Shown one piece after another: positions 38,130 to 64,000 of a stretch of 64,000 nucleotides of DNA. The stretch covers positions 6,198,927 through 6,262,926 of the forward strand of contig OY811988.1 of assembly GCA_963681505.1 (NCBI GenBank), in the 5' to 3' direction. Origin of the DNA: Eunapius fragilis. Lineage: Eukaryota > Porifera > Demospongiae > Spongillida > Spongillidae. Numbering within the stretch: position 1 is the stretch's first letter; the number at the start of each line of letters is the position of its first letter. The notes beneath the pieces were generated by a model that ran no database searches, was not told the origin of the DNA, and saw only the letters and a list, made by a program, of their open reading frames with translations. A program made the translations under genes and the position numbers.

Positions 38130-38300
38130 ATACTTACATTCGCTTACATAGCCACGGGTACGCATACATAGCCATGGGGCAAGCTTACGTGGTCACGGGT
38201 ATACTTGCATTCGCTTACATAGCCACGGGTACGCATACATAGCCATGGGGCAAGCTTACGTGGTCACGGGTATACTTGCATTAGCTTACATAACCACGGG
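38130..38300 (+). repeat. 71-bp tandem repeat, about 2.4 copies
   Basis: CGCTTACATAGCCACGGGTA at 38141 recurs at 38212, and as a diverged copy at 38283, giving a 71-bp period. Each unit carries GCCATGGGGCAAGCTTACGT. A partial, rearranged relative is present at 42490-42600. Confidence 0.8.
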
Positions 38301-38997
38301 TACGTAGCCTTTACAACAGACATGGGTACCCTCGTTCAAATCCATACATACTACGCCGTCAGCGTTCTAGGTCACGGGCACACATCAACAAGCTATCATT
38401 CATACGAGAAAAGCTTAGAGTCACGACACCACTTATGCCTTCCGTTCGTTTGGCTGCCAATTGAAAATCAATTGATTTAATTGACATACATGTATGGTCC
38501 GGGCACGACTAAAATTATTTGTTTATCATCTTCGAGTGACTCGCGTTTTGGGCCCAGTGTTGTACTGTGCAACGAATCCTTGTGTTAGCGCCAGGTATAC
38601 GATGATTATATTTGTATGGTTGCTCTGAACAGAGCAGTAATTGTTCAGCACGAATGTCATTTACGGGTGTCTATTTTACTAACATCAAGGCTTGACGTAG
38701 TGTACAATAGGTTCAAAGCGCCACTGCATTAGGACGTGTTGTTGGAAGATTGCGTTGTGCTCTGGCGTATCGTAAGCACCATATAGGACCAATTGCTGCA
38801 TCAAGCAGACCTCTAGTTACGAGGCAGACCATCCAGCGCGTACACACTGCACACGCACTCCACACAGATATAAGCTTTGCCCCTCACCTTTTAAAAACCC
38901 TCACGTCACTACAATAAGCAGCCTGTACGCTCGCTACCTACCAATCTAATCCTTAAAATTTGAATTTGAAATAGTTACTTATTAATAATTCCTTTTA

Positions 38998-39363
38998 ATG
39001 CACTTTGTAGCGATTGGCCTTGGTAGCAGAGCTGAGCTGTTTAAACAGGTACCAAGGGTGGGATATACGTGCCGCACATTTCTGAAGGTGAACAGGGGTA
39101 CGCGGGAGAGTGTACAACCTATTCCGGAATACAATGCGCGAGTCCCTTTATGTACAACCACTCGATACTTTGAAATTTGCCATAGACTTGCCTTACACCT
39201 TTCATCCTTTAGAAATGTGTGGCAAAGGAGCGAGGACAGACTGCCCACGCAAGACCGAACTTTGTTCTCGTCTATTGAACATCCATCGAGGTACGTTCCT
39301 AATTACTTATTTGTACAACGTCCGCACATATGGCCGTTGATACAAGTTTTTTCTATTACCTAA
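38998..39363 (+). CDS. Doubtful 121-codon ORF in module A
   Basis: This frame opens with MHFVAIGLGSRAEL at a conserved module landmark and includes a QDRTLFSSIE peptide. Similar peptides can be read in other modules (DRTLYSSIERSS near 37285, NRTLYSSIKRSS near 42363). However, the second module A copy and both C copies do not keep the full frame, and likely splice donors fall inside it. It resembles no protein I recognise. It may be part of a spliced subtelomeric transcript, coding or not; the uninterrupted ORF itself is probably fortuitous. Confidence 0.15.
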   Translation: MHFVAIGLGSRAELFKQVPRVGYTCRTFLKVNRGTRESVQPIPEYNARVPLCTTTRYFEICHRLALHLSSFRNVWQRSEDRLPTQDRTLFSSIEHPSRYVPNYLFVQRPHIWPLIQVFSIT

Positions 39364-39946
39364 GCTTCCCACACGACTGGCGTGCCACAAACGAGCTTAA
39401 TTCACATCTGCTGGGTCACGTTCAATATTATATCCCTAAGACGTGCGATTCAAACGCACTACCGTACCTACCTTGTCACCTAAATTAAGTCGTTGTCCAT
39501 TAATTAACCAGGCTTCACTCACGCGTGTGGCGTGTCTTTTACCAGCTAGCTTCATACCTGCAGTGCCATGTATAATTTGAACACACGTATGCAGCGCTAG
39601 TAAAAAGCACTACAGTACCTGCATATGGCCTTGTCACTTAGCTAAGGTTACGTGTGCTGCCACGATGGGCTTGTTAGAACGTCTTGATGCACTAAGGGAA
39701 GGACCAACCACCCGCCAACCCACCCAACAGACTTACAAATTTTCCTTGCATAAATTCTATTGAAGTGCACATACTGGAACTACATCATTTTAAGTGTACA
39801 CTGTATTACATGTCCTTAGTATGTGAAGAAACATCGCACTGCGAATTAAAACAACTTGCAATTAGCAAACGACTTAAACAGATTTGTTGACTTAATTACA
39901 TTCATACTGATGAACCCACAACTGCTTCGTAAGGTTAATACATCGC

Positions 39947-39955
39947 TATAAATAG
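39947..39955 (+). promoter_or_regulatory. Conserved TATA-box-like TATAAATAG, module A copy 1
   Basis: TATAAATAG follows CATCGC and is kept in module A copy 2 (52583-52591). It precedes a conserved GC-rich stretch, CCAGCGAGGCCCGGGAAC, about 30 bp downstream in both copies. The spacing would suit a core promoter for a rightward transcript. There is no direct evidence of transcription. Confidence 0.3.
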
Positions 39956-40560
39956 ACAAATCGATTGTATTTCATTTATACCAGCGAGGCCCGGGAACAA
40001 AGTACCGCCAAGGTTCATAGCATTATGGCTTTGGGTCCGCTATGTTCCTCCCATAGCAGGGGTTTTCTTAAGCGTTTTTATTTTTGTGTATCGCAACAAT
40101 ATATTTATTTTATCTCCAGTGTGTTTTACAGTTACCTTACAAAGGCTAGGTGCCCCCGCATCACTACTTTTGTACGTCTGCCTGCCGTGCCATGTACAAG
40201 CTTTGTACACATCTGCCGTGCCACGTGCAATCCTTAACTGTGTTTGCAGTGCCGATTCTAATGCACAACCCCCCCCACCCCACATACACACATACTGCCT
40301 TGTCTATTATCCAAGCTTTACACACGACAGGCGTGGCACGTAAGCTTAATGACATCTTTAATCATGCCGATTCTAACGCACTACCCCTCCACTAGCTTAA
40401 CAAATTACTGGCATGCCATGTAAAAGCAATATCAGCCGTACCCAATCTTCGTACACGTCTGCCACGTGATTGAAATGCACTACCCCCACCACCACACAAA
40501 CACACGCACGCACACGCTCATATATGTCACGTAGCCTTTGTCATGGATACAGATACACGC

Positions 40561-40933
40561 TTTGAACATGCCTAAACGGCAGACCGTGTATATGTATTTA
40601 CCCCTAATAGTGGCATGGCGGTGGCGTCGGTACCGTTGGCAATACATTGAATAGGCGTGTGGTTGCTCATTAGGTAACCATTTTTATTCATTGCCAACGA
40701 TAACCCTGCCAACGGTAGAAATGGTTACCAACCCTAGTAACCATTTTTTTTTTGCGCATATCTCTTGTTGCGTAGCTTATGGCTTGACCTGGCTTGGTTT
40801 TCTCGATAGACCAGTCACTATAGAATTAGCCCGTACCTCTTGTTGTGTATCGGATGGTAGTGGCTTGCGCGCTACGACGCCGCTAGCTAATACCCCCCCC
40901 CCCCCCCCCCCCCCCCCTCTCCAGGTGCTGTAG
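40561..40933 (+). other. Spacer with C25 tract; no gene seen
   Basis: Non-coding by appearance. It holds a C25 homopolymer (40893-40917) just before module E, and near-repeats of GGTTACCA/TAACCATTTTT around 40675-40750. The length of such a tract is prone to sequencing error. Confidence 0.6.
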
Positions 40934-41190
40934 CTCAAATCAATTGTACAAGCACAACACACGATCATATATACTAATGCACAAAATTGTTTCGACATTG
41001 CACTTCCAGTTCTGCCTCCTCAGGTCCTCCTCTCTCGGGCAACGCGTCTGGTCACTCGCCATCTGCAATCCTTTACAGTGTAGCTATGAGAAGGTTGGAT
41101 TAACATAGGACACAGTAAAAAATGAAAACAGCTAGCCAAGCGTTGGCCATGCGGGCCCAAAAAATTCACTACCACACAGCTACGCGGACC
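40934..41190 (+). repeat. Module E, copy 1
   Basis: The stretch from AGCTCAAATCAATTGTACAA to about CACACAGCTACGCGGACCCA is almost identical to 50624-50888, immediately upstream of the helicase gene. Sequences on both sides differ between the two copies, so the module edges are sharp. Confidence 0.85.
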
Positions 41191-42619
41191 CATGGGACAC
41201 CAACAATTCATTATCACACTCCCGTGTGTACGGCACCCACGGTACGGCCGAACATGCCATGTGGACTGTTCGACCCGGCTTACCCATGCGGACCAATGGG
41301 GCACTCTAACAAGCGTTACCACGGGTTAGGGAGGCATGAAGCACTCTATACCAAATCAACTGTTCCAAGCGTTAGCCATGGTGCAGCTTGAAACACTGTT
41401 ACAAATCATTACCAACACCCTGTTCAAGGGCTAACCATACGGGCCATGCGGGCTATGTGGACCCATGGGACACATGCACTTACGCTGCGCTTATAACTTG
41501 TAGAAACACAGCCACATACAATACACGCACGCACCACAAAGCAAATTCTCCTATACACAAGCTAACGAGCCTATTGTAACACGCCAACACATGTACTAGT
41601 GTAACAACCGTCAACCTATTGTAACACGCCAATACTTAAACTGACTAGCACGACCAACTGTATTACTTCCATACTGCCATACATCGCATGAATAAGATTA
41701 GGTTACTCTTCGGGTGCTCGTCATGAATGTAATTAGGTTCCTTTGTCATGGCATATCTTAAAAAGCTGTTTCCTACCCTACAATTGTATCATTTATACCT
41801 TTAGTCACTTGGCGAAGGCTATCCGTGCTACGACGATGGGCAAGTTAGAACGTCTTCATGTGAATAGGAGGGCCAGGACCAACCACCCGCCAACCCAACA
41901 GACTTTGAATACTACGAAGCACACCCACGCCGTACTAGCTCCAGCGCGTGCACACGAGAACACACGCACTCACACTATTACACAGAGCCTGGAGTACGTA
42001 CGGGATCGATGCATCAAGCAACCTCTAGTTACGAGGCAGACCATCCAGCGCGTACACACCGCACATGTGCACTCCACAAAGATAAAAGCTTTGCCCCTCA
42101 CTCACCTTTTAAAAATCCTCAAGTCACTACAAGAAGCCTTTGCTACCTAGTACCTACCAATCTACGTCGCACGAATTCTTAAAATTTGAATTTGAAATAG
42201 TTACTTATTAATAACTCCTTTTAATGCACTTTGTAGTGATTGGCCTTGGTTAGCAGAGCTGAGCTGGATCTATCTTTCCGAGGTAAGTTCCACGTTATAT
42301 GGGCCTGCCCTGTAATTGGGCAACCTTACATTGCCACGAGAACACAGGCAGCCCAGGTGAAAACCGTACTTTGTACTCGTCTATTAAACGCTCGTCGAAG
42401 GATGTTGGTAAGTGCTACCCACAGCATCACTTTCTACCGCGTGCTATTTACAACCTTAGTTCACATCTGCCGTGCCCCATGTTTCCTAGTATAGCCACGG
42501 GTACGCATACATAGCCAGGGGCAAGCTTACGTTGTCACGGGAGCACTTGCATTCACTTACATCGCTTACATAGCCACGGGTACGATTACACTAGCCTAAA
42601 TACTCGAGGGGCAAGCTTT
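41191..42619 (+). repeat. Subtelomeric mosaic including an extra partial module C
   Basis: No convincing gene. 41191-41480 has irregular repeats around GCGGACCCATGGG and AGCGTTAGCCATG. From about 42005, GCATCAAGCAACCTCTAGTT to the GAGGTAAGTTCC donor-like site (42280-42291) duplicates module A/C sequence. 42360-42500 carries the ACTTTGTACTCGTCTATTAA motif followed by a donor-like GGTAAGTGC (42407), then CATCTGCCGTGCCCCATGTT, also found at 38104. Confidence 0.6.
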
Positions 42620-43900
42620 CGTAGTCGCGTGCACACTTGCAAATGCCTTTCAAGCATACTCTAGCCTTTAGAACAGACATGGGTACCCTCGTTCAAATCC
42701 ATGCATACTACGCCGTCAGCGTTCTAGGTCACGGGCACACATAAACAAGCTATCATTACAATGAGAAAAGCTTAGAGTCACGACACCACTTATGCCTTGC
42801 GTTTGTTTGGCTGCCAATTGAAAATCAATTGATTTAATTGACATACATTGTATGGTCCGGGCACGACTAAAATTATTTGTTTATCATCTTCGAGTGACTC
42901 GCGTTATTGGGCCCAGTGTTGCACTGTACTACGAATCCTTGTGGTTAGCGCCAGGTATATGATGATTATATTTGTATGGTTGCTCTGAACAGAGCAGTAA
43001 TTGTTTAGCACGAATGTCATTTACGGGTGTCTATTTTACTAACATCAAGGCTTGTCGTAGTGTACAATAGGTTAAAAGCGCGACTGCATTAGGACGTGTT
43101 GTTGGAAGATTGCGTTGTGCTCTGGCGTATCGTAAGCACCATATAGGACCAATTGCTGCATCAAGCAGACCTCTAGTTACGAGCCAGACCATCCAGCGCG
43201 TACACACTGCACACGCACTCCTCACAGATATAAGCTTTGCCCTCACTCACCTTTTAAAAATCCTCACGTCACTACAAGAAGCTACCTAGTACCTACCCTC
43301 GCACGAATTCTTAAAATTTCAATTTGAAATAGTTACTTATTAATAATTTCTTTTAATGCACTTTGTAGTGATTGGCCTTCGTAGCAGAGCTGAGCTGGAT
43401 CTATCTTTCCGAGGTAAGTTCCACGTTATATGGGCCTATTTAAACGCGTATGAGGGTGGGATAAACGTGCCGTACAGTGCAGCAGGGGTGCTCGGGAGTC
43501 CCGTGCGATAGTGGCTGTGCTATGGTTGTGCGTGCAACCCATTCCTGAATATAACGCGCGCGAGTCCCTTTATGTACAACCACTCGATACTTTTAAATTT
43601 GCCATAGCTCAATTTACATCTTTCATCCTTTAGTAATGGCTGAGCGAGGGTCAAGGCCGAACTTTATACTCTTCTGAAGGCTCGTCCACACTTCCGTGGA
43701 AGGATTTAGGTACGTGGCTAGTTCTTTTTTTGTACAACATCCGCCTATTCAACACCTCGTTTTGTCTATTAATTAAGCTTCCCACACGACCTACGCCCCC
43801 CCCCCCCCCCCCCCCACCACGTACGTTGTCACCTAAATTTAGTCGTTGATACAAGGTTTGTTTTACACTCACCTTACACCGTAACCGGCACACATGCACT
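42620..43900 (+). repeat. Subtelomeric module C (partial module A relative)
   Basis: From GCAAGCTTTCGTAGTCGCG (also at 50898) through ACAGACATGGGTACCCTCG, the CAATTGA hairpin and TGCTCTGAACAGAGCAG to the ATGCACTTTGTAGTGATTGG landmark, this follows module A. It then diverges into a different exon-like stretch ending GAGGTAAGTTCC (43411-43422). A C20 tract lies at 43796-43815. No ORF of interest. Confidence 0.75.
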
Positions 43901-44152
43901 AACCTTATACCACCACAGGCACAGCTTTAACTAGTTTACGCACCGTCATGGGCACACTTACACTAACTTACAATGCCATTGGACAAGCTTGTACTGCCAT
44001 GGGGCCTTGCAATGCCTACAAAAGCTTCAACATAGCCTTGCAATGTCTTGTAAAACCTTACATAGCCACGGGGACACTTGCAATGCTCTAACACATTTGC
44101 CCCAAAATGCTCTTGCTTATCTGCCGTGCCATGTAAAATGCACTACACACAC

Positions 44153-44232
<80 letters not shown>

Positions 44233-44660
44233 GCCTTGTCACATAGCTTCGTTGATACACCAACATGCCTGGGGTAGACTAAATTTTGTTTACTCCTACT
44301 AAAAATAAATATAGGCCAAAATAATAATTGATTTGTTTTGTCAAGGCCACTAGGGCCTTCCTTCAAAATCACACGCATTTGCCATGGCAGTTCAAAAAAA
44401 ATGTTACACATATAAACAAAGGTGCGCATGTATTAAAGGTTGTGCCTCTCACAATTTAGAACCTTGATAAAGAATGTGAATAGTTAAGTATACATGTATA
44501 TATGTAAGTTAATTTTAAAATTCTCACACAAACACACATACACACATGCATATGCACACGCAAATACTAAATTAGTTAAGGTTGCTATAACATATTATGC
44601 AGCAAACATAGCTGCCTGGGTGTAGGCCTTATATACAATTTATCACAAAGACTGTATATG
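43901..44660 (+). repeat. CA microsatellite and module D, copy 2
   Basis: GCCACGGGGACACTTGCAATG-type units at 43980-44090 are followed by a CTGCCGTGCCATGTA motif, a (CA)n run at about 44139-44231, and module D landmarks CATAGCTTCGTTGATACACC and GTCAAGGCCACTAGGGCC. These continue to about 44620 in parallel with 54165-54720. ORFs here are artefacts of the CA repeat. Confidence 0.75.
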
Positions 44661-45925
44661 ATTATAATGCAAGGTGTCTGTAGACGAGGAGTTCAGCATG
44701 AGGTTCTTGAATTGTAGAGTATAACCTGGATGAAAGGATTGGTGTAAACATAGTGCCACTTGTGATTCTCATTCATCCCCCTCATTACATGCACATCTCC
44801 ATCGTTTAAGCCAGCAAACTTCTCACAGCACATACCCCCTAAAGGTGTACTGTTGTGTGCGAGCATGAACTAGCTGCCGTGACACTGTTTATGCACAATC
44901 ATAGCTATAAGTCTATACAAGCAAGGGCATGTACTATCTGTTCACTCATTTGGCCTCCTAAACTATTGTGTGTAGTATGAGCGTGAACCATTTGCATTGG
45001 TTTTGTACTTCAGTGCCAAGTACAACGCTACCTAGCTGACACACATCTAATGCTGCCATCCCAGTTGTACACAAACACACCACTCCTGTCCTACTTGATC
45101 GTTTACACAAATCTTCCGTAGCAGGCATTCACACACGTCTGCCTTAGCTATCAGCTTATGTTTGCAACACGAAGCACGCACGCCTTGCCTAGCTATTAGG
45201 TACACAAATGCCACAGGTGAGCTTACTGGCATCACAAACTCCTTGCAAGCAAGCGCCTCACTATAGCTACGCACAAGCTAAAAAGAAAGCCTTACAGGCA
45301 AATGCCCAGCTAGCGTATGCTTAAGAAAGACTTGCCTCCTATTGGATAACATTTTCTGTGCTACAGCTTGCGCTTGGCAAGGCTTGCTCGCTATGGGACA
45401 AGCTTACACAACTTGTGATCCCTTTTAAAAAGCATTCAATGCCACACACACAGCCACGGGACACTTAGTTGCACTACATAGCCATGTTGCAACATTAGGC
45501 ATTATAGCAGCCAAACGAATGCCACATTGCAACATTACTAAGGCCCAATTGTAGCATTTAGAGCTTGTGATACCGGTAGTATATGTTGATGCTAGTTTGT
45601 ATACGTGCACACATGAGCCTTTAAAATTAGTTAGTATATAAGTGTGGGTGAGTATATAAGCTTATGGAATAACGAAGATTTAAACTTTATTTTTAAATCA
45701 ATGGAGGAATGCACCTTGCCCTTAGTTTTCTGCTAGATATCCACATAAATTATCTACGATGTGTACTAGTCCCCTTCTAACCTGTTATCCACTTTTTTAT
45801 GTGACGTGCATGTGTATGCGTGAGTGTAACATGCATAAACTATACGCATATGCTTGTTTGCATACCTCAAACACACCGTTTTCAATATAATAATGATGCA
45901 TGTGCAGAACGATACAATTTAAATG
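44661..45925. other. Unrecognised spacer downstream of the helicase gene
   Basis: No gene or clear repeat recognised. The sequence lies 3' of the minus-strand helicase gene, so its right part is probably 3' UTR. Short ORFs here show no family features. Confidence 0.5.
45686..45691 (-). terminator. Candidate poly(A) signal for the helicase gene
   Basis: AATAAA on the minus strand lies about 235 bp past the stop codon at 45926. It is the nearest canonical hexamer I noticed. It would give a modest 3' UTR, but such hexamers are frequent by chance in AT-rich DNA. Confidence 0.35.
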
Positions 45926-48900
45926 TCAGCGAGCTGGGCTATACTCCACAAAAAAATTCCATAGTTTTAGTATGCCGCGTTCGTCCCTCTCGTATATATC
46001 AACTGTTGCAACATTGGTGATTTTTACAACTGCTAGACCAAAAAACTTGAGGGTCTCTCCAAAGAGGCAGCCCTTGGAAAACCCATCCGGGTGAAAGACT
46101 GTTACCCCCAGTTTTTCAGGCAGGTAGCAGCGCGGACAAGTGCCACTGATGGTGCGTTTGTTGCTGGCAATGCATTTATTGACAGCATGGGGCCCAAAAC
46201 ACCGCAGGCACTTACCATGCATCATTGGGCAACTCTTAATGCCGTGATTCGCGGAAATTCCAGACACAGCCCAGCAAACAATACACATGGCCTTGAACCT
46301 GTTCAAATAGAACCAAAGTTGTTCACCAAGGTCTCTTGTGGCACAAACCAGGTTTTGTCCATGTGTGCAATCAACAAAGACTGAATCAGGCAGGTTGGCA
46401 AATATGTCTTCCTCACCTATTTCATCATTACTTCTCGTACCTTGAGGGCCATGCTGCTGCATGCAGGTGTCACAGGACTGATTTAAAGGGTCATGGCTAC
46501 ACTCTGTTTCTGTACCATCAAGGTACCTCGCCAAGTATCTTCTTCGGCATACCTGCTTCATTGTTGCAAAATGCAGCATGTCATCAAAGGCTGTTGTGGT
46601 TAGGTGGTGCGACCTGGCCACTTCTGCATTGCGGTCAAATAACGTTAAGGCCACTGAAGGCTCTCCGTCACGCCCCGCTCTTCCCATCATTTGGGCATAA
46701 TCTTCAACTGAGTAACAGAGACCAAAGGAAATGACTTGCCGCACGTGGGCATAGTCAATTCCGACTCCAAATGCGCTTGTCGCAACCATAATCTTCACTT
46801 GGCCTTCCCTCCACAATATAAAATTGGAGGCATTTTCATTAGCCTCTTGCTGCCCACTGTAAGTTGCTGAGGTTATCTCTATGTCTCCAGCTGCGTCCAG
46901 AGCGTGCTTGACAGAATGCATAATGTCCACGGATGGCACATAAATTATAATCCTGTCCTCAGGAACGTTTGATGAGACAAACTGGGCACAACATCTGACC
47001 AAGTTGCTGGTCCTACCAGACTCGTCAAAGGTGTAAGCAAGGTTGGGACGACTCGTGGTCTGCCTTATCACCAAACTGTAAGGCATCCGTGCAGGCCCAA
47101 AAAAATTCTGCATCAAGTCCTCCACGATCCACTGGGGTGCTGTGGCCGTCATGAGGACTAAGGGGGAGCTGAAAGAGCCGAGAGGGCCAGGCAACTGGCG
47201 ATACAGGGGACGGTACCCACATTCCGTTGAAAACATGTGGGCCTCATCCACAAATATTTTTCCTAGCTGCCCGCTGCTGTGAAGTCTAGTTAGCAGTTCA
47301 GTAACCTCCGAGCCTTGAACCACAGCTTCTGGCGTTACAATAACCAACTGCTCCCTGGTTACTGTTAGGGGTGTGCACGAGCAAGATACACCAAGATTCT
47401 GAGCTCTCCTGGCCAGGTCCTGCTTGAGGCTGATGGTTGGTACGACCAAGAGGCTGGTGGTGTTGGCATATTTAACTGCATATGTGAAGAAAACAAGGCT
47501 TTTGCCACACCCTGTAGGAAGAATGACCAACAGGTTCGATCCCGTGTGGAGAACGTTCTCCACAGCTGCCCGCTGTTGGCTGGACTTGAATTGGGCATGG
47601 TCGTCCTTATAAACAGACCGTAGGCACAGCAGCGCATCCTCAGACTGCTGGACTGTTACAAGTGCTGTCTGTCTCCGAACACTGCCACTGGATGCGGCTG
47701 CACCAAGGCTACACTCGCTGGAAGAATTCGAGAGCCCATTGACCACTGAGATGCGGGAAACCTTCCCACTAGTATAGGGTGCTGCGCTGCCCTTCAAAAA
47801 ACGGTGCCATATCTGGGAGACATCTCGAAAGCCTTCCAGGACATGTAGCCTCATATGCTGAGGCTCTCCCGCCTCGATGCCGTACCATGTATTTGAGGTA
47901 CTTGTGGAGTGACCGAACTGTTTGTTAACCAGTGTGTCCCAACCGGCACTGGCGGAGATGTTTTCACCAAAGCCCTCCTCTTCTTCGCTGCTGTTGTCAT
48001 CGCGGTGGCAGTTGTTGAGGTGCAGCTGGAGTGAGTAATACTTGGCTACGTGTCTGTACTCGGCAAAGGATATGGTGCTGCCGCAATACTTGTGAAACAG
48101 GCGGGCAAAGGCATTTCTAATCTGGTCTGACGAAAGCCTTTTCCCACCACTGGCAAACAGATGTGTCCCATGAATGTTGTCATCGTTTTGTTCGACAAAA
48201 GATGACAATGAACAGACAAATGGTCTTATCACCAGAAGGTCAGTCAAGACGATAGAGGAGGCCTCGGGGTCCAGGAAGCGCGAGACTCCTCTATTTGCCT
48301 GCCGTACGGCACGGGTTTTCGAGTACCAGCAGTGTAGGAAGACCTGCCCGTTGAGGAAGAAGACAGTGCGATAGGCACTTGAACCGTTCACAATCCGGTA
48401 TGTCTCCATTTCAGTTGATCTCGCCGGCATGCCTGACCCAACATGGATAAGCACAATGAGGTTCTCCACGAACTCGTCAAACATGGCAAGGTACTTGTTG
48501 ACCTCTCCCGCCCGATACTGGACCATGTCGTCCTTCACCGTGCACACAAACCTTGTCCGAAGAGATTCTGTTGCCAGAATATGCCTCAGCAGACTGCATC
48601 TGATGGACTGGTCGAGGGATGGTATTTTATCAGCCATAATCCGTGAGCCCAAGGCTAAATTGTCAAAAGGGTTTGGACGAAATTCCAAGCCCAAGAGCAG
48701 TTGGACCAGGAGGGCCTTGGACTTGGCGAGGGCTGAACTGTATACGTGACGAAGTTGGTCGAGTCGGAGATGGATTCCTCGAATTATAATGTTCCAGGGA
48801 TTGTCGTCGCTTGTTTTGGAGACCACGGGAAAACGATTGGTACTCTGGACTACCCTATGTGCGAGCCCTTTAATGCTCACAAGGAAAGAAAAGATGTTAA

Positions 48901-49621
48901 AGTGGTCAACTTCGACGCACTTCTTCAACTCGATTATGGCCTCCACGCGATCTGGTTCAGGAGCGTCCATTGCCTTTTCTAGGACACACACTTTTGCCAA
49001 ATACATCAATTTGGCACAGAGGCGCTGAACAAAGTCTGCGTCAGCTAGTGATCCGTCGGCCCTGTGGCAGTTGAACCTTACAAAAAGAGGAATCACTGCA
49101 GTGGTGTCTCTGTTTATGACCGTGCTTTCTGTTAGCATGGACAACACTAGCTTGCACACGGATTGTCGGTCCATAGCACGCATGAAGGCTTCAACGCCTG
49201 TTACAATATCTTCAGACGTGGCTATGGCTGTCTGTGTCGTCAGTTTGATGGCAAACAGAACGAGTCTGGTGTACACTCTGCAGTATTCCCCCACACTGTT
49301 CTCTGTTTGTAGGCTAGTGATTATTCGTGGCACGGCGCCACCACATCTGTCCGCACTGTCGCTCACAGCAGCTCGCATCTGGAATGAGCACGACTCCACT
49401 TTAGTGACAAATGTACGGAATATGTTTGTCAATGGACCCACAAATGAGTGCAAGTGGTCATTGGGATCAGGGAGTTCAACCAGAGCTGCTTTGTTGGTGA
49501 TGTGGCTGAAGGTATCCATCCTCTCTGGCTCTGGGTACCAGCCAGTAATCACATACAGTAGGTTGCGTTCCTGGATGCCATCGGGAGCGACTGTATCACT
49601 GCTCTTGAGGACCGAGCTCAT
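45926..49621 (-). CDS. Tyrosine-recombinase-like/RecQ helicase, telomere-linked (TLH-like), main exon
   Basis: This is a 1231-codon intact frame. Residues 380-590 look like a tyrosine recombinase core: SGMPARSTEM (box I Arg401), a beta-hairpin Lys in YSK435, EYRHVA (Arg523-His524, with Ala where the usual box II His sits), and FGHSTSTSNTWYG with His571 and Tyr580 spaced as in the H-x8-Y box. A WHRFLKG stretch follows at 605. Residues 675-1055 form a RecQ-type SF2 helicase: QQRAAV (motif 0), LPTGCGKSL (Walker A, Lys707), DEAH (792-795), LMTATAP, VATSAFGVGIDYA, QMMGRAGRDG (977-986), and zinc-binding Cys1025, 1041, 1050 and 1053. The tail (1113-1165) has Cys-rich knuckles (CLRCFGPHAVNKC, CPRC). 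The OrsD+RecQ pairing matches fungal telomere-linked helicases. The first ATG of the frame is probably internal to an intron; the likely exon starts at 49603. The frame appears more GC-rich than its surroundings. Confidence 0.9.
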   Translation of the reverse strand: MSSVLKSSDTVAPDGIQERNLLYVITGWYPEPERMDTFSHITNKAALVELPDPNDHLHSFVGPLTNIFRTFVTKVESCSFQMRAAVSDSADRCGGAVPRIITSLQTENSVGEYCRVYTRLVLFAIKLTTQTAIATSEDIVTGVEAFMRAMDRQSVCKLVLSMLTESTVINRDTTAVIPLFVRFNCHRADGSLADADFVQRLCAKLMYLAKVCVLEKAMDAPEPDRVEAIIELKKCVEVDHFNIFSFLVSIKGLAHRVVQSTNRFPVVSKTSDDNPWNIIIRGIHLRLDQLRHVYSSALAKSKALLVQLLLGLEFRPNPFDNLALGSRIMADKIPSLDQSIRCSLLRHILATESLRTRFVCTVKDDMVQYRAGEVNKYLAMFDEFVENLIVLIHVGSGMPARSTEMETYRIVNGSSAYRTVFFLNGQVFLHCWYSKTRAVRQANRGVSRFLDPEASSIVLTDLLVIRPFVCSLSSFVEQNDDNIHGTHLFASGGKRLSSDQIRNAFARLFHKYCGSTISFAEYRHVAKYYSLQLHLNNCHRDDNSSEEEEGFGENISASAGWDTLVNKQFGHSTSTSNTWYGIEAGEPQHMRLHVLEGFRDVSQIWHRFLKGSAAPYTSGKVSRISVVNGLSNSSSECSLGAAASSGSVRRQTALVTVQQSEDALLCLRSVYKDDHAQFKSSQQRAAVENVLHTGSNLLVILPTGCGKSLVFFTYAVKYANTTSLLVVPTISLKQDLARRAQNLGVSCSCTPLTVTREQLVIVTPEAVVQGSEVTELLTRLHSSGQLGKIFVDEAHMFSTECGYRPLYRQLPGPLGSFSSPLVLMTATAPQWIVEDLMQNFFGPARMPYSLVIRQTTSRPNLAYTFDESGRTSNLVRCCAQFVSSNVPEDRIIIYVPSVDIMHSVKHALDAAGDIEITSATYSGQQEANENASNFILWREGQVKIMVATSAFGVGIDYAHVRQVISFGLCYSVEDYAQMMGRAGRDGEPSVALTLFDRNAEVARSHHLTTTAFDDMLHFATMKQVCRRRYLARYLDGTETECSHDPLNQSCDTCMQQHGPQGTRSNDEIGEEDIFANLPDSVFVDCTHGQNLVCATRDLGEQLWFYLNRFKAMCIVCWAVSGISANHGIKSCPMMHGKCLRCFGPHAVNKCIASNKRTISGTCPRCYLPEKLGVTVFHPDGFSKGCLFGETLKFFGLAVVKITNVATVDIYERDERGILKLWNFFVEYSPAR

Positions 49622-49737
49622 TGTTTTGGCAACAATGGTCCCTACTGTATTTCACTGGCACCGGCTGGTGCAGCAGTTTGAGCTCCCACTGTTACTGGCA
49701 GGATGCCAAAGTAGGTCTTGATACAAGAGGTGCTCAC
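49604..49737 (-). other. Predicted spliceosomal intron joining the two helicase-gene exons
   Basis: On the minus strand, ACG|GTGAGC at 49737 and CCTCAAG| ending at 49604 give a 134-nt intron, phase 0 on both sides, and restore one frame (..Q-T|S-S-D-T..). An alternative donor, CCA|GTAACA at 49695, also keeps phase and adds 14 residues. The nearer acceptor-like CAGs (ending 49655 and 49645) either hit a stop or break phase. The intron contains both the stop of the upstream frame and the first ATG of the downstream frame, which explains why the two frames look separate. Confidence 0.6.
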
Positions 49738-50520
49738 CGTCTGCACTTTACATGGAGTGGGCTCATCTTGGCTGTCGTGCATTTCGTTCATGTGCTCCTT
49801 CATGTGGCGCCGTGACTTTCCATAGTGGTAGCAGTGGCCACACATGTAGCCATCAAAGGTTTCAAGGAAATCGATTGCCGGCAGCAAGGGATGGCCAGCC
49901 TCCAAGTAAGGACTCACGTTGGTAAAGCACGATTGCATTATACTGGATTCATCTCCTGGCGATATTCTGACCTGGTGCACCCTTTTCATGTGGTTTGCAA
50001 AGCCCCTCCTCAAAACCACTTTGCAACAAAGACAAATTAGAAGCTTATATTCCTGACGGTAGCAGAGATTGAACCTATCCAGCGATAGGCCGCGAGAAGC
50101 ATCCGAAGAACCAGAAGCGTCGGAACAATGGGCAGTGACCGATTCCTGGACCGAGATAGCTGTTCCAGATTGGAAAGCAGGACCAGCAGTGACCGATCCA
50201 TCTACCGAGATAGCTGTATCCAATTGCTGAACGAGGGCTTCTGGAATGTCCTCGGGGTCGCCGTTGTCTACACTATGTGCTTCCTCGTTCTCGGCTGTCT
50301 CCAGGAAATAGCATCGTCGGTGCTTCATGAATTTCTGCCTGCTAGTGGTTTGGCTGCCGCATACACAAGTGAAGTAGCCATTCACTTTGGCCACTGTTTC
50401 ACTTCTCGTGCCATCCGAAGAATGGAATGTGTGGGTGTCAGTGTGGGTCGTACTTACGTGGTGCCTCAATTTTCCTCTGGATGTTGCCGTAAAGGGGCAG
50501 GTTTTGCACCTATTGGACAT
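49642..50520 (-). CDS. OrsD-like C2H2 zinc-finger N-terminal exon of the same gene
   Basis: This 292-codon frame starts MSNRCKTCPF. It has four finger-like units: C5-C8-H21-H26, C52-C54-H67-C70, C163-C166-H177-H182 and C227-C230-H243-H248. The last two, in the setting YRQEYKLLICLCCK and GYMCGHCYHYGKSRRHMKEH, resemble the OrsD/DUF3505 family, which in fungi is commonly fused to subtelomeric RecQ helicases. A short internal duplication (TAISV..SVTA at about 102-111 and 120-129) forms a linker. The last 30 or so codons after Thr261 look like read-through into an intron. Splicing at GTGAGC (49737) to CTCAAG (49604) joins this to the helicase frame in phase, giving about 1486 residues. A strong donor-like GTAAGTACG at 50457 inside the frame hints at alternative splicing. 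A separate two-gene arrangement is less likely. Confidence 0.75.
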   Translation of the reverse strand: MSNRCKTCPFTATSRGKLRHHVSTTHTDTHTFHSSDGTRSETVAKVNGYFTCVCGSQTTSRQKFMKHRRCYFLETAENEEAHSVDNGDPEDIPEALVQQLDTAISVDGSVTAGPAFQSGTAISVQESVTAHCSDASGSSDASRGLSLDRFNLCYRQEYKLLICLCCKVVLRRGFANHMKRVHQVRISPGDESSIMQSCFTNVSPYLEAGHPLLPAIDFLETFDGYMCGHCYHYGKSRRHMKEHMNEMHDSQDEPTPCKVQTVSTSCIKTYFGILPVTVGAQTAAPAGASEIQ

Positions 50521-50623
50521 CTTGGTCTACGATAATAGATTCCGCGCTGCGCCCGAAGTAGTAATAAATAAGCTGTTATTATTTGGGACAGTGTCCAGCT
50601 AAATCACCATTATGGTACTTTTG
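50521..50623. other. Short upstream region of the helicase gene
   Basis: Only about 100 bp separate the ATG at 50520 from module E copy 2. It is AT-rich (TTATTTATTA on the minus strand), and I see no clear TATA box. The promoter may lie in module E or further out, or an upstream non-coding exon may exist. Confidence 0.4.
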
Positions 50624-50890
50624 GAGCTCAAATCAATTGTACAAGCACAACACACGATCATATATACTAATGCACAAAATTGTTTCGACATTGCACTTCC
50701 AGTTCTGCCTCCTCTGGTCCTCCTCTCTCGGGCAACGCGTCTGGTCACTCGCCAGCTGCAATCCTTTACAGTGTAGCTATGAGAAGGTTGGATTAACATA
50801 GGACACAGTAAAAAATAAAAACAGCTAGCCAAGCGTTGGCCATGCGGGCCCAAAAAATTCATTACTACACAGCTATGCGGACCCAACAAT
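50624..50890 (+). repeat. Module E, copy 2, abutting the helicase gene
   Basis: Near-identical to 40934-41190, same orientation. Its left edge (about 50624) meets helicase-gene upstream DNA, and its right edge (about 50888) meets module A/C sequence (GCAAGCTTTCGTAGTCGCG). The two junctions mark breakpoints of the rearrangement that placed the helicase locus here. Confidence 0.85.
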
Positions 50891-53240
50891 TTTCAGCAAG
50901 CTTTCGTAGTCGCGTGCACACTTGCAAATGCCTTTCAAGCATACTCTAGCCTTTAGAACAGACATGGGTACCCTCGTTCAAATCCATGCATACTACGCCG
51001 TCAGCGTTCTAGGTCACGGGCACACATAAACAAGCTATCATTACTATGAGAAAAACTTAGAGTGACGACACCACTTATGCATTGCGTTTGTTTGGCTGCC
51101 AATTGAAAATCAATTGATTTAATTGACATACATTGTATGGTCCGGGCACGACTAAAATTATTTGTTTATCATCTTCGAGTGACTCGCGTTTTTGGGCCCA
51201 GTGTTGCACTGTGCTACGAATCCTTGTGGTTAGCGCCAGGTATACGATGATTATATTTGCATGGTTGCTCTGAACAGAGCAGTAATTGTTTAGCACGAAT
51301 GTCATTTACGGGTGTCTATTTTACTAACATCAAGGCTTGACGTAGTGTACAATAAGTTAAAAGCGCGACTGCATTAGGACGTGTTGTTGGAAGATTGCGT
51401 TGTGCTCTGGCGTATCGTAAGCACCATATAGGACCAATTGCTGCATCAAGCAGACCTCTAGTTACGAGGCAGACCATCCAGCGCGTACACACTGCACACG
51501 CACTCCACACAGATATAAGCCCTCACTCACCTTTTAAGAACCCTCACGTCACTACAATAAGCAGCCTGTACGCTACCTACCAATCTAATCTATAAAATTT
51601 GAATTTGAAATAGTTACTTATTAATAATTCCTTTTAATGCACTTTGTAGCGATTGGCCTTTGTAGCAGAGCTGAGCTGTTTAAACAGGTACGAAGGGTGG
51701 AATATACGTGCCGCACATTTCTGAAGGTGCAACAGGGGTACGCGGGAGAGTGTACAACCTATTCCGGAATACAATGCGCGAGTCCCTTTATGTACAACCA
51801 CTCGATACTTTGAAATTTGCCATAGCCTTGCCTTACACCTTTCATCCTTTAGAAATGTGTGGCACAGGAGCGAGGACAGACTGCCCACGCAAGACCGAAC
51901 TTTGTTCTCGTCTATTGAACTTCCATCGAGGTACGTTCCTAATTACTTTTTTGTATAACGTCCGCACATTTGGCCGTTGATACAAGTTTTTTTATTAACT
52001 AAGCTTCCCACACGACTGGCGTGCCACCTACGAGCTTAATGCACATCTGCTGGGCCACGTTCAATATTATATCTCTAAGCCGTGCGATTCAAACGCACTA
52101 CCGTACCTACCTTGTCACCTAAATTAAGTCGTTGTCCATTAATTAACCAGGCTTTACTCACACGTATGGCGTGTCTTTTAGCAGCTAGCTTGACACCTGC
52201 AGTGCCATGTATAATTTGAACACACGTATGCAGCGGTAGTAAAAAGCACTACAGTACCTGCATATGGCCTTGTCACTTAGCTAAGGTTACATGTGCCACG
52301 ATGGGCTTGTTAGAACATCTTGATGCACTATGGGAAGGACCAACCACCCGCCAACCCACCCAACAGACTTACAAATTTTCCTTGCATAAATTGTATAGAA
52401 GTGCACATGCTGGAACTACATCATTTTAAGTGTACACTGTATTACATGTCCTTAGTATGTGAAGAAACATCGCACTGCAAATTAAAACTACTAGCAATTA
52501 GCAAGCGACTTAAACAGATTTGTTGACTTAATTACATTCATACCGATGAACCCACAACTGCTTCGTTAGGTTTATACATCGCTATAAATAGAGAAATGGA
52601 TAATATTTTATTTATACCAGCGAGGCCCGGGAACAAAGTACCGCCAAGGTTCATAGCATTACGGCTTTGGGTCCGCTATGTTCCTCCCATAGCAGGGGTT
52701 TTGTTAAGCGTTTTTATTTTTGTGTATCGCAACAATATATTGATTATATCTCGAGTGTGTTTTACAGTTACCTTACAAAGGCTAGGTGAAGGTATGTGCC
52801 CCCGCATCACTATTTTTGTACGTCTGCCTGCCGTGCAACGTACAAGCTTTGTATAAATCTGCTGTGCCACGTGCAATCTATAACTGTGTTAGCAGTGCCG
52901 ATTCTAATGCACAACCCCCCCCACCCCACATACACACATACTGCCTTGTCTATTATCCAAGCTTTACACACGACAGGTGTGGCATGTAAGCTTAATAACA
53001 TTTTTAATCATGCCGATTCTAACGCACTACCCCTCCACTAGCTTAAGAAATAACTGGCATGCCATGTAAAAGCAATATCAGCTGTGCCCAATCTTCGTAC
53101 ACGTCTGCCACGTGATTGAAATGCACTACCCCCACCACCACACACACACACGCACACGCTCATATATGTCACGTAGCCTTTGTCGTGGATACAGATACAC
53201 GGTTTGAACATGCCTAAAGGGTAGACCGTGTATATGTATT
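50891..53240 (+). repeat. Subtelomeric module A, copy 2
   Basis: Follows module A copy 1 (38310-40560) closely, from ACAGACATGGGTACCCTCG at about 50958 to AACATGCCTAAAGGGTAGACC at about 53207. Differences are small indels (for example GTGAAGGTATGTGCC against GTGCC near 52788) and substitutions that break frames. It includes the second TATAAATAG (52583) and a short C tract (about 52914). Confidence 0.85.
52583..52591 (+). promoter_or_regulatory. Conserved TATA-box-like TATAAATAG, module A copy 2
   Basis: Same sequence and context as the site at 39947, with the downstream CCAGCGAGGCCCGGGAAC also kept. Conservation between otherwise drifting copies is the only support. Confidence 0.3.
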
Positions 53241-54164
53241 AACCCCTACTAAAAATTTACTTACTACCATGCGTTGCTCTATTGTTTTGATAAGGCCACT
53301 AGGGCCTTCCTCAAAATCACACATATTTGCCATGCAGTGCAGTTAAAAATAGTACACAAATAAAAAGGATTCCAATATTTCTGATTGTGGCTTTTACAAA
53401 GGTTCTAAATAGACATGTAGGAAAATAACAATATGTATGAATTCTTTGGGTAACCAACACATACCTATACATGTATATAAGATACACTGTAGATGTACGC
53501 ATTATAAGAATCTGCTGTGCTATATAGGTAACACCTACTCGCGAGATTACTGTGCCAGGCAGAGAGACCTTATAAGTTTACAGTAGTAATAAATTTAATT
53601 TTAACGAGAGACTCATTAACCTATGGGCGGTCCTGCTTGAATTGGTTCAAATACATTGTACCAAATACATAATGGTATTCGGTCCCATCTCACCCAAAAT
53701 AAGATCTATTAAGATGTAATAGTTTTTGAACACAAATGTCAAGTCTGTTGTGCACACATGCATTATAATTGACACATAGTGGTCTGCTTAAATATATGGG
53801 AACCACCATAACAATAAGATTTATTGAAGCAATAAAATTAATAGTTGGTACTTGTAGGTTATTATAAATTTTTTCTTCTACGTTTCCAGGTGGACCAGCA
53901 GTGCTTTGAAGGCATGCATCATTTTTGACCGTCATCTGAAAAAAAAAAAGAGTTATCACAAAGTGAAACAAAATACAGCCATGCAGAAAGGCAAATATGA
54001 AGGTGACATTCAAGCAGTGACTATTGCAAAGTAGGGTTGGTAAGAAAAAATGAAATATTGAATTCTTTCAGTGGCTTGTACTTGTATACAATGGCTGCAC
54101 AATGTAAACACGTAGACCATTATACAAATGACAGCCTATATACGGGCTTATGCACAAAGTTTGG
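53241..54164 (-). other. Spacer with module D fragment and a possible minus-strand exon
   Basis: A fragment of module D (AAGGCCACTAGGGCCTTCC) lies at about 53293-53340. On the minus strand a pure T tract ending in CAG (to 53936) is an excellent splice acceptor. It is followed by an open stretch starting ATGACGG, within a 107-codon frame that reads through the acceptor. I do not recognise the peptide; the exon call is tentative. The rest is AT-rich and unassigned. Confidence 0.35.
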
Positions 54165-60200: not shown

Positions 60201-62159
60201 TAAATTCAGTTAAACATAGGGATAAAAGGGACGGATAAAGCAGGTGTAAGTGAGCAGTATGGGTCATAGGAAAGAGGTTTTGAAATGAAGGGTTCATGAT
60301 ATTTGTGTTTAGTTAAACAATTAAAACAGACCAAGAAAATATTACTTAGTATTATGTGGTAGTAGGAGAGATTTTGAATGAAGTAGGTCATAATCTTCTA
60401 GCGAAGTTAAACAATTATTGACTCCAAAATTTCACCAAGTACATACAGGGCAAGGTCTGGTAGCAGGAAAATAGATATTATGAATGAATAGGGTCGTAAT
60501 TTTCAAGTGTAGATAAACAATTATAGATTAAGAAAATACTGAGAAGTTCATACACGGCAGTGTGTCGGATAGATACTTATAATGAAGAGGGTCAAGATAT
60601 TCATGTGTACATAAATAACTAAAGAACGAACAAGAAGTTATTAGGGGCAATGTATCGTAGTAGGATATCAGACAATAAAAATGAAACAGTTCATGATTTT
60701 CAAGGGTAATGAAAAAATATAGATTGAAGAAAAATAAAACAAGGTCATACTGCAGTGTATGGTAATTGAAAAAATGAGATATCGAATGAAATGGTTAATG
60801 ATTTTCAAATGTAGTTAAACAATAATAGATTGATGAAAAACATCAAGTACATACAGGGCAATGTGTGGTAAAAGGAAATTGGAGATGACAAAAGGTCACG
60901 ATGTTCAAGTGTAGTGAAACAATAATACATTAAGGAAAAAGAACAATTAGATATTACAAGGTAGTGTGAGGTAGTTGGAAAATAGAGATTTTGAATGAAG
61001 AGGTTCATTACTTTCAAGTCAAGTTAAATAATTACTGATTAAACGAATACATCAAGAAGTTCATACAGAGCAATGTGTGGAAGTAGGAAAACAGAGATTT
61101 TGAATGAAGAGGGTCACGATTTTCAAGTTTGGTTAAGAGATAATTAAATATAGAAAGACATTAAATAGTAATTACAGGCTAGTGTGTGGAAAATCGAAAA
61201 AAGATTTTAAATAAAGGGGCATGATGTACAAGTGTTAGTTACATTATTACGAATTAAAGAAATACATCAAAAAGTTAATACAGCAGAGTGTGTAGTAGGA
61301 AAACAGAGAATTTGAATGAAGAGGGTCACACTGCTAAAGTTCAGTTTAACGATAATTTTAAAATATAAATACATAGAGAAGTAGTAACAGGGCAGTGTGT
61401 TGTAATAGGAAAACAGAGATTTTGAATAAAGTGGGTCATGTTATTCAAGTGTTGATTACACAATTACGAATTAAAGAAATACATCGAAAAGTTTATACAG
61501 CTGAGTGTGTGGTAATAGGAAAACAGAGATTTTAAATAAAGTGGGTTATGTTATTAAAGTGTTAGTTACACATTTAAAGAAATACATCGAAAAGTTTATA
61601 CAGCAGTGTGTGGTAATAGGAAAACAGAGATTTTGAATAAAGTGGGTCATGCTATTCAAGTGTTGATTACACAATTACGAATTAAAGAAATACCATCTAA
61701 AAGTATATACAGCAGAGTGTGTGGTAATAGGAAAACAGAGATTTTGAATAAAGTGGGTCATGTTATTCAAGTGTTAGTTACACAATTACGAATTAAAGAA
61801 ATACATCGAAAAGTTTATACAGCAGAGTGTGTGGTAATAGGAAAACAGAGATTTTGAATAAAGTGGGTCATGTTATTCAAGTGTTAGTTACACAATTAGG
61901 AATTAAAGAAATACATCGAAAAGTTTATACAGCAGAGTGTATGGGAATAGGAAAACAGAGATTTTGAATAAAGTGGGTCATGTTATTCAAGTGTTATTTA
62001 CACAATTGCGAATTAAAGAAATACATCGAAAAGTTTATACAGCAGAGTGTGGTAATAGGAAAACAGAGATTTTGAATAAAGTGGGTAATGTTATTCAAGT
62101 GTTAGTTGCACAATTACGAATTAAAGAACTACATCGAAAAGTTTATACAGCAGAGTGTG
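60200..62159 (+). repeat. Telomere-adjacent tandem repeat of about 110 bp
   Basis: The unit contains GGTAATAGGAAAACAGAGATT, GGTCATGTTATTCAAGTGTT, ACACAATTACGAATTAAAGA and CATCGAAAAGTTTATACAGC. GGTAATAGG starts at 61511, 61612, 61723, 61833, 61943 (variant) and 62051, giving periods of 101, 111, 110, 110 and 108 bp. Toward the left, units become progressively diverged (GGTAGTAGGAAAA, TTTTGAATGAAGAGGGTCA and so on) but can be followed to about 60200. The last unit breaks at CAGAGTGTG, directly joined to TTAGGG. Confidence 0.9.
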
Positions 62160-64000
62160 TTAGGGTTAGGGTTAGGGTTAGGGTTAGGGTTAGGGTTAGG
62201 GTTAGGGTTAGGGTTAGGGTTAGGGTTAGGGTTAGGGTTAGGGTTAGGGTTAGGGTTAGGGTTAGGGTTAGGGTTAGGGTTAGGGTTAGGGTTAGGGTTA
62301 GGGTTAGGGTTAGGGTTAGGGTTAGGGTTAGGGTTAGGGTTAGGGTTAGGGTTAGGGTTAGGGTTAGGGTTAGGGTTAGGGTTAGGGTTAGGGTTAGGGT
62401 TAGGGTTAGGGTTAGGGTTAGGGTTAGGGTTAGGGTTAGGGTTAGGGTTAGGGTTAGGGTTAGGGTTAGGGTTAGGGTTAGGGTTAGGGTTAGGGTTAGG
62501 GTTAGGGTTAGGGTTAGGGTTAGGGTTAGGGTTAGGGTTAGGGTTAGGGTTAGGGTTAGGGTTAGGGTTAGGGTTAGGGTTAGGGTTAGGGTTAGGGTTA
62601 GGGTTAGGGTTAGGGTTAGGGTTAGGGTTAGGGTTAGGGTTAGGGTTAGGGTTAGGGTTAGGGTTAGGGTTAGGGTTAGGGTTAGGGTTAGGGTTAGGGT
62701 TAGGGTTAGGGTTAGGGTTAGGGTTAGGGTTAGGGTTAGGGTTAGGGTTAGGGTTAGGGTTAGGGTTAGGGTTAGGGTTAGGGTTAGGGTTAGGGTTAGG
62801 GTTAGGGTTAGGGTTAGGGTTAGGGTTAGGGTTAGGGTTAGGGTTAGGGTTAGGGTTAGGGTTAGGGTTAGGGTTAGGGTTAGGGTTAGGGTTAGGGTTA
62901 GGGTTAGGGTTAGGGTTAGGGTTAGGGTTAGGGTTAGGGTTAGGGTTAGGGTTAGGGTTAGGGTTAGGGTTAGGGTTAGGGTTAGGGTTAGGGTTAGGGT
63001 TAGGGTTAGGGTTAGGGTTAGGGTTAGGGTTAGGGTTAGGGTTAGGGTTAGGGTTAGGGTTAGGGTTAGGGTTAGGGTTAGGGTTAGGGTTAGGGTTAGG
63101 GTTAGGGTTAGGGTTAGGGTTAGGGTTAGGGTTAGGGTTAGGGTTAGGGTTAGGGTTAGGGTTAGGGTTAGGGTTAGGGTTAGGGTTAGGGTTAGGGTTA
63201 GGGTTAGGGTTAGGGTTAGGGTTAGGGTTAGGGTTAGGGTTAGGGTTAGGGTTAGGGTTAGGGTTAGGGTTAGGGTTAGGGTTAGGGTTAGGGTTAGGGT
63301 TAGGGTTAGGGTTAGGGTTAGGGTTAGGGTTAGGGTTAGGGTTAGGGTTAGGGTTAGGGTTAGGGTTAGGGTTAGGGTTAGGGTTAGGGTTAGGGTTAGG
63401 GTTAGGGTTAGGGTTAGGGTTAGGGTTAGGGTTAGGGTTAGGGTTAGGGTTAGGGTTAGGGTTAGGGTTAGGGTTAGGGTTAGGGTTAGGGTTAGGGTTA
63501 GGGTTAGGGTTAGGGTTAGGGTTAGGGTTAGGGTTAGGGTTAGGGTTAGGGTTAGGGTTAGGGTTAGGGTTAGGGTTAGGGTTAGGGTTAGGGTTAGGGT
63601 TAGGGTTAGGGTTAGGGTTAGGGTTAGGGTTAGGGTTAGGGTTAGGGTTAGGGTTAGGGTTAGGGTTAGGGTTAGGGTTAGGGTTAGGGTTAGGGTTAGG
63701 GTTAGGGTTAGGGTTAGGGTTAGGGTTAGGGTTAGGGTTAGGGTTAGGGTTAGGGTTAGGGTTAGGGTTAGGGTTAGGGTTAGGGTTAGGGTTAGGGTTA
63801 GGGTTAGGGTTAGGGTTAGGGTTAGGGTTAGGGTTAGGGTTAGGGTTAGGGTTAGGGTTAGGGTTAGGGTTAGGGTTAGGGTTAGGGTTAGGGTTAGGGT
63901 TAGGGGTTAGGGTTAGGGTTAGGGTTAGGGTTAGGGTTAGGGTTAGGGTTAGGGTTAGGGTTAGGGTTAGGGTTAGGGTTAGGGTTAGGGTTAGGGTTAG
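62160..64000 (+). repeat. Telomere, (TTAGGG)n, right chromosome end
   Basis: About 307 units of TTAGGG, uninterrupted except for one TTAGGGG (63900-63906). The G-rich strand runs 5'->3' to the right edge, so this is a genuine terminal array pointing outward and not an interstitial block in reverse. There is no zone of degenerate repeats at its inner boundary. The long Val-Arg open frame through it is an artefact. Confidence 0.99.

Follow-up and report, generated by a model that had tools for sequence, protein, structure and literature searches.

The window analysed here is a 64-kb stretch of DNA at the end of contig C18 (6,262,926 bp), one of the 24 contigs (C1 to C24) that make up the 218.9 Mb of the searched genome. 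That genome gives 7 matches to PF00110 (wnt), on C6 and C12, which group into about three genes and place the host among the animals. C24 (28,504 bp) bears a mitochondrial COX1 in which TGA is read as Trp; so small a wnt set and so large a mitochondrial contig suggest that the animal is probably a sponge. A terminal TTAGGG array (62159..64000, plus strand) closes both the window and the contig, and a minus-strand gene (45926-50526) is separated from this telomere by 11.6 kb, in agreement with the subtelomeric location given in a preliminary description of this DNA. The gene occupies two open reading frames. ORF1 (49642..50526, minus strand, 294 aa) encodes a C2H2 finger and an OrsD domain (PF12013; 49777..50067, minus strand, ORF1 residues 154-250), the latter matched at 8.3e-6 with 26.7 bits against a cut-off of 26.6. 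ORF2 (45926..49651, minus strand, 1241 aa, first Met at 49621) lies in a different frame and comprises an N-terminal region, a recombinase-like core (47852..48469, minus strand, residues 395-600), a RecQ helicase core (46463..47581, minus strand) and a C-terminal tail. The RecQ core had been recognised previously, and matches to DEAD (3e-16) and Helicase_C (2e-16) support it, with RecQ_Zn_bind under its cut-off.

The shift between ORF1 and ORF2 is due to five extra bases, TACTG (49643..49647, minus strand), which are absent from a closely related copy on C23. The OrsD-type C2H2 fingers proposed for the N-terminus are therefore present, but not in one frame with the rest of the protein in this copy. 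The junction point is read through in a relative on C9, a single open frame of 1564 aa that aligns with ORF2 residues 3-1236, and in a 649-aa fragment on C6; OrsD is over its cut-off in both. A whole-genome OrsD search listed matches on C21, C9 and C6, and not the window copy. The interior C21 match (C21:4523720-4524013) is an OrsD fragment, and the frame that follows it resembles the start of ORF2 by eye. With its frame break the window copy may be inactive, or may make only the recombinase-helicase part.

The gene-bearing segment (44648..50621, minus strand) lies between a repeat, W, and a 270-bp fragment of a subtelomeric repeat, X (50622..50891). Beyond X is the subtelomeric repeat Y (50896..53251, plus strand), which has a 94% copy at 38250-40609 and more copies at other contig ends. 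The left edge of Y at 50896 is sharp, and many copies have it in common, among them a 1.6 kb form that also occurs at interior sites. Window positions 38250-53251 are a mosaic of X, Z, Y and W units, and at several contig ends these units face the nearer end in matching orientation. The subtelomeric repeats are preceded by a tandem satellite of about 36 kb (452-36859), with units of 185 and 208 bp forming a 393-bp double unit.

Residues and fold of the recombinase-like core

Upstream of the helicase, ORF2 carries most of the residues expected of a tyrosine recombinase active site, all on the minus strand: Arg411 of box I in GSGMPARSTEM (48419..48421), Lys445 in YSKT (48317..48319), Arg533-His534 in AEYRHVA (48050..48055), His581 in FGHS (47909..47911) and Tyr590, the candidate nucleophile (47882..47884). 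These numbers run along the stop-to-stop ORF2; counted from the Met at 49621, the residues are exactly the Arg401, Lys435, Arg523-His524, His571 and Tyr580 named earlier. Motif order and the His-Tyr spacing of 9, as in XerD, fit the family as had been stated, and the Glu three residues after the box I Arg (R-x-x-E) likewise fits. The active site had been called full; its Arg, Glu, Lys, Arg-His, His and Tyr are present, but the box II His is missing. Its position is held by Ala530 in the window protein, as the preliminary description recorded (Ala520 in its numbering), by Ser or Gly in the C9 and C7 relatives and by Phe in one broken row, so that this His is absent from every aligned copy.

We compared three lineages without stops in the aligned domain, represented by the window, C9 and C7 copies; the C9 and C7 lineages are each about 40% identical to the window protein, and the reading frame of C7 is broken between residues 430 and 435. 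All seven catalytic-type positions are invariant across the three, where 68 of 188 columns are invariant overall (hypergeometric 7e-4). The residues are also kept in the C23 copy, so the conservation among homologues on which the recombinase proposal was to be judged is observed. A C5 copy retains all six residues despite 7 stops, and a copy at 7869 kb on C9 retains the ones that fall within its extent. Losses are confined to stop-bearing copies: Thr and Lys replace the two Arg on C22; two C16 copies have Arg for Lys and Gln for the His after Arg533, one having lost Arg411 and the other Arg533; and Arg-His is visible only in a second frame on C14. Wherever a copy aligns at His581 and Tyr590, both are present. 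A putative piece of S. pombe Tlh1 aligns at 8e-22 and has the same residues, which we treat as a lead only.

A strict pattern, R..[ED]-K-RH-[GS][HW]-x8-Y, which was written after seeing the sequence and which XerD fits but Cre and lambda Int do not, occurred in 58 of 200,000 shuffles of residues 395-600 and in 0 of 133 E. coli ORFs. A looser pattern that Cre and lambda Int do fit was reached in 233 of 20,000 shuffles and by 2 of the 133 ORFs.

Profile comparisons gave no significant match to the tyrosine recombinase fold, whether in Pfam, PHROGs, PDB sequences, hhalign, an XerD model or block chains; as far as sequence profiles go, this counts against the recombinase proposal by the first of the refuting conditions set for it. 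Two PDB sequence matches (E 0.72 and 0.98) were set aside as chance, and five family members lacked a DUF3504 match. Alignment by hhalign to 76 XerD-like rows returned a probability of 0.26 of 100, or 0.32 with nine more recombinases added, and column-permuted controls scored as well in 28 of 150 cases (386 columns) and 34 of 150 (261 columns). A lambda Int scan found 80 copies, all 99% identical, which were left out; two further scans gave four loci. The best placement of the XerD model on the C9 protein puts box I at the right Arg with a domain E of 0.095, which is not significant, and its best placement on the window protein lies elsewhere, at residues 349-364. An XerD-only block chain run on the whole window protein fell off the motifs; this model was too narrow, having missed the motifs of Cre and lambda Int, and was discarded as uninformative.

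On residues 380-640, a 4-block chain settled on the proposed motifs in the window protein (second block one residue off) and in the C7 protein; in C9 the best chain leaves the catalytic register after block one. Shuffles reached the best chain in 354, 17 and 90 of 2000 trials for window, C9 and C7, respectively; in the same order, 646, 1157 and 153 of 2000 attained the catalytic register. For the family as a whole, 8 of 1500 permutations reached the best chain, which has two of its four blocks in register, and 95 of 1500 reached the full register. With so little depth in the family profile (Neff 1.95), these comparisons could overlook a remote relationship that is real. Since no profile method gave a significant tyrosine-recombinase match, we regard the fold as likely rather than demonstrated: judged on its sequence, the middle region probably adopts a tyrosine-recombinase fold, and whether it is also catalytically active we put a little short of even.

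Genomic copies and their junctions

Searching the genome for closely related copies, as had been suggested, gave 52 matches that, grouped within 10 kb, form at least 23 loci, the window included. Most of the copies listed are fragments or bear stops. Five of the 23 loci (C18, C23 at 25 kb, C6 and two on C5) are no more than 130 kb from a contig end, and three of them no more than 30 kb; about 0.6 and 0.15, respectively, would be expected, with thresholds chosen after seeing the list. The other 18 lie farther in than 130 kb. Mostly broken copies cluster at C10:1108902-1170026, C9:7610889-7870394 and C5:11545371-11621245. Elsewhere on C9 (9625139-9675257), COX1-like stretches with stops occur at two places and are probably nuclear copies of mitochondrial DNA. 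Searches beyond this genome with a two-row alignment produced 87 pattern matches in viral_contigs and 117 in genome_contigs, none of them a relative.

The C23 copy shares 2.35 kb with the window at 98.1% identity, and over the 20 kb compared its flanks have nothing in common with the window beyond simple repeats. Between the two, 13 substitutions are synonymous and 16 non-synonymous (dN/dS about 0.38, from few changes); the C23 copy has in addition a stop and further indels. Directly at its gene-5' side is a TTAGGG run of about 31 bp. The C6 copy is a 5' fragment that ends after residue 279; TTAGGG follows after 67 bp, and another block of it lies 3.5 kb on, in the direction away from the gene. 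At both junctions the G-rich strand points outward from the truncated end. Among 60 sequences compared, which did not cover all 23 loci and from which the terminal array was excluded, only C23 and C6 had two or more perfect TTAGGG units. On C1 (25 Mb), at least 12 sites of four TTAGGG units were found among the matches listed; at this sparse density two TTAGGG neighbours among about 46 copy ends are unlikely by chance genome-wide, although subtelomeres may be richer. Near the C6 copy and its TTAGGG blocks there is also a GIY-YIG-like reading frame (L030:3444-3791), which we take to be possibly of Penelope type.

X also occurs at seven further places, including the left block of the window itself, each time preceded by conserved non-gene DNA, and the gene is thus absent at these sites. 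The X-side junction was compared at all seven and both sides at one, on C13, where about 850 bp of W tail and pre-X sequence stand in the gene's place. In the window, X is shortened on the telomere side. Together with the replacement DNA on C13 this indicates rearrangement rather than clean insertion, and the proposed comparison of empty and filled sites yielded no precise pair at the junctions covered. The non-coding ends of segment 44648-50621 match nothing elsewhere except for 175 bp (44674-44848) on C10. No target duplication was found and no convincing terminal repeats, although the C9 element may be longer than the 6.7 kb examined.

A shared 3' boundary at L010:579 was considered as an element end and rejected. 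The adjoining 240 bp (L010:580-820; C9:7808749-7808989) are a dispersed repeat with more than 30 solo copies, and the edge motif does not occur in the window beyond chance, so this boundary proves nothing. The outer edge of the same repeat is also where, at three further places, homology with the 3' side of the gene breaks off. PF00589 matches less than 10 kb from some C9 and C23 copies were likewise dismissed as a second recombinase; the two that were read out look unrelated and by motif are presumably DIRS-like.

The view of this gene as a self-mobilising element thus holds in part. The spread over at least 23 loci, the 98% copy with unrelated flanks, the contig-end excess and TTAGGG at two truncated ends favour it, but a clean filled/empty pair, terminal repeats and target duplication were not found.

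Relationship to known systems and possible explanations

The closest known system is that of the fungal telomere-linked RecQ helicases (TLH). Three subtelomeric repeat families with helicase, DUF3505 (OrsD) and TTAGGG motifs are described in Colletotrichum higginsianum (PMC5576322); Ustilago has the RecQ-like helicase UTASa, with OrsD reported in UTASb (PMC10532341); many TLH regions, some full and some truncated, lie at the chromosome ends of Fusarium oxysporum (PMC12857005); and in Mycosphaerella graminicola 6 of 13 copies of a subtelomeric RecQ gene are truncated (PMC4522978). Passages of a further study report no domain beyond the helicase core in fungal subtelomeric helicases (PMC7473861). 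The window gene resembles these as a subtelomeric RecQ-type helicase gene, one of a number of copies, with an OrsD/DUF3505 part; some of its relatives lie near contig ends or TTAGGG. It differs in its animal host and in having most copies at interior sites.

With XerD, Cre and lambda Int the core shares the order R-x-x-E, K, R-H, G-H-x8-Y and the 9-residue His-Tyr spacing; in contrast to them it lacks the box II His, has two extra box I residues and a longer acidic spacer before box III, and gives no significant profile match. Cryptons are also eukaryotic DNA elements with a tyrosine recombinase, and DUF3504 (Crypton-type) matches exist in the same genome. Of the Crypton tetrad R-H-R-Y (PMC3212892), however, the window protein has three of four, the box II His being the one missing, and it has no DUF3504 match. 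The word helicase is absent from the main text of that paper (PMC3212892). DIRS and Ngaro elements likewise use a tyrosine recombinase, but the window gene has no reverse transcriptase match. A literature search of titles, abstract openings and some passages, its scope excluding preprints and many journals, found nothing linking TLH-type helicases or OrsD to a recombinase.

The explanation we favour, and hold with about even confidence, is that the gene is an animal relative of fungal TLH whose central 200 residues are a strongly diverged tyrosine-recombinase catalytic core, cutting and rejoining DNA and spreading the gene between chromosome ends. From the residues, copies and junctions described above we infer the fold, the catalysis and the mobility. 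The OrsD/C2H2 fingers would bind DNA of the element itself or of the subtelomeres; Tyr590, with Arg411, Lys445, Arg533 and His581, would cut and rejoin one strand at a time; the RecQ motor would open or migrate the joint; and the gene would thereby copy or exchange itself between chromosome ends. More tentatively, fungal and animal TLH may form one old class of DNA element in which zinc fingers precede a tyrosine recombinase and a RecQ motor belonging to the element, and which seeds or targets both chromosome ends and TTAGGG sites in the interior.

The gene could instead be a plain TLH gene whose middle is not a recombinase, with motifs that are coincidental or serve DNA binding and copies spread passively via subtelomere exchange and segmental duplication. 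The absence of a significant profile match for the middle region agrees with this, as do the fragments and stops in most listed copies and the position of the window copy amid shared subtelomeric repeats that form a mosaic and have been reshuffled with no clean insertion. However, the motif positions are kept across distant copies with a His-Tyr spacing of 9, the C23 copy shares the gene and none of the flanks beyond simple repeats, and copies occur at many interior sites; we consider this reading less likely than the favoured one. Less probable still, the domain could descend from a recombinase but be inactive and serve DNA binding, having been domesticated together with the helicase to maintain chromosome ends, like DUF3504 from Cryptons. 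In its favour, no aligned copy has the box II His, Crypton-derived genes that lost catalytic residues are known (PMC3212892), and passages in two sources discuss TLH as possible telomere-maintenance factors (PMC12857005, PMC10532341). Domestication of this kind sits poorly with His581 and Tyr590 in every copy aligned there and with both Arg and the Lys in three lineages, whereas DUF3504 genes are described as having all lost the Tyr and the second Arg (PMC3212892). The TTAGGG at truncated copies might also mark broken ends healed by telomerase and later buried rather than element targeting, which is compatible with the other readings and which we judge evenly poised. The outward G-rich strand on both C23 and C6 is as healing predicts, and the second C6 block accords with it, but healing alone leaves the interior copies unexplained.

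The animal genome examined holds a TLH-type gene with a conserved recombinase-like active site, which sequence profiles do not confirm. In the passages seen, the role of TLH is so far only proposed (PMC12857005, PMC10532341, PMC4522978). A recombinase core, if true, would account for the multiple copies of TLH, for their truncation and for their link with chromosome ends, and would single out one residue to test, Tyr590. A tyrosine recombinase would then also come with a RecQ helicase of its own, a pairing not found in the titles, abstract openings and passages searched. Should the recombinase reading be confirmed, telomere genes of a kind known for a long time could come to be seen as mobile elements.
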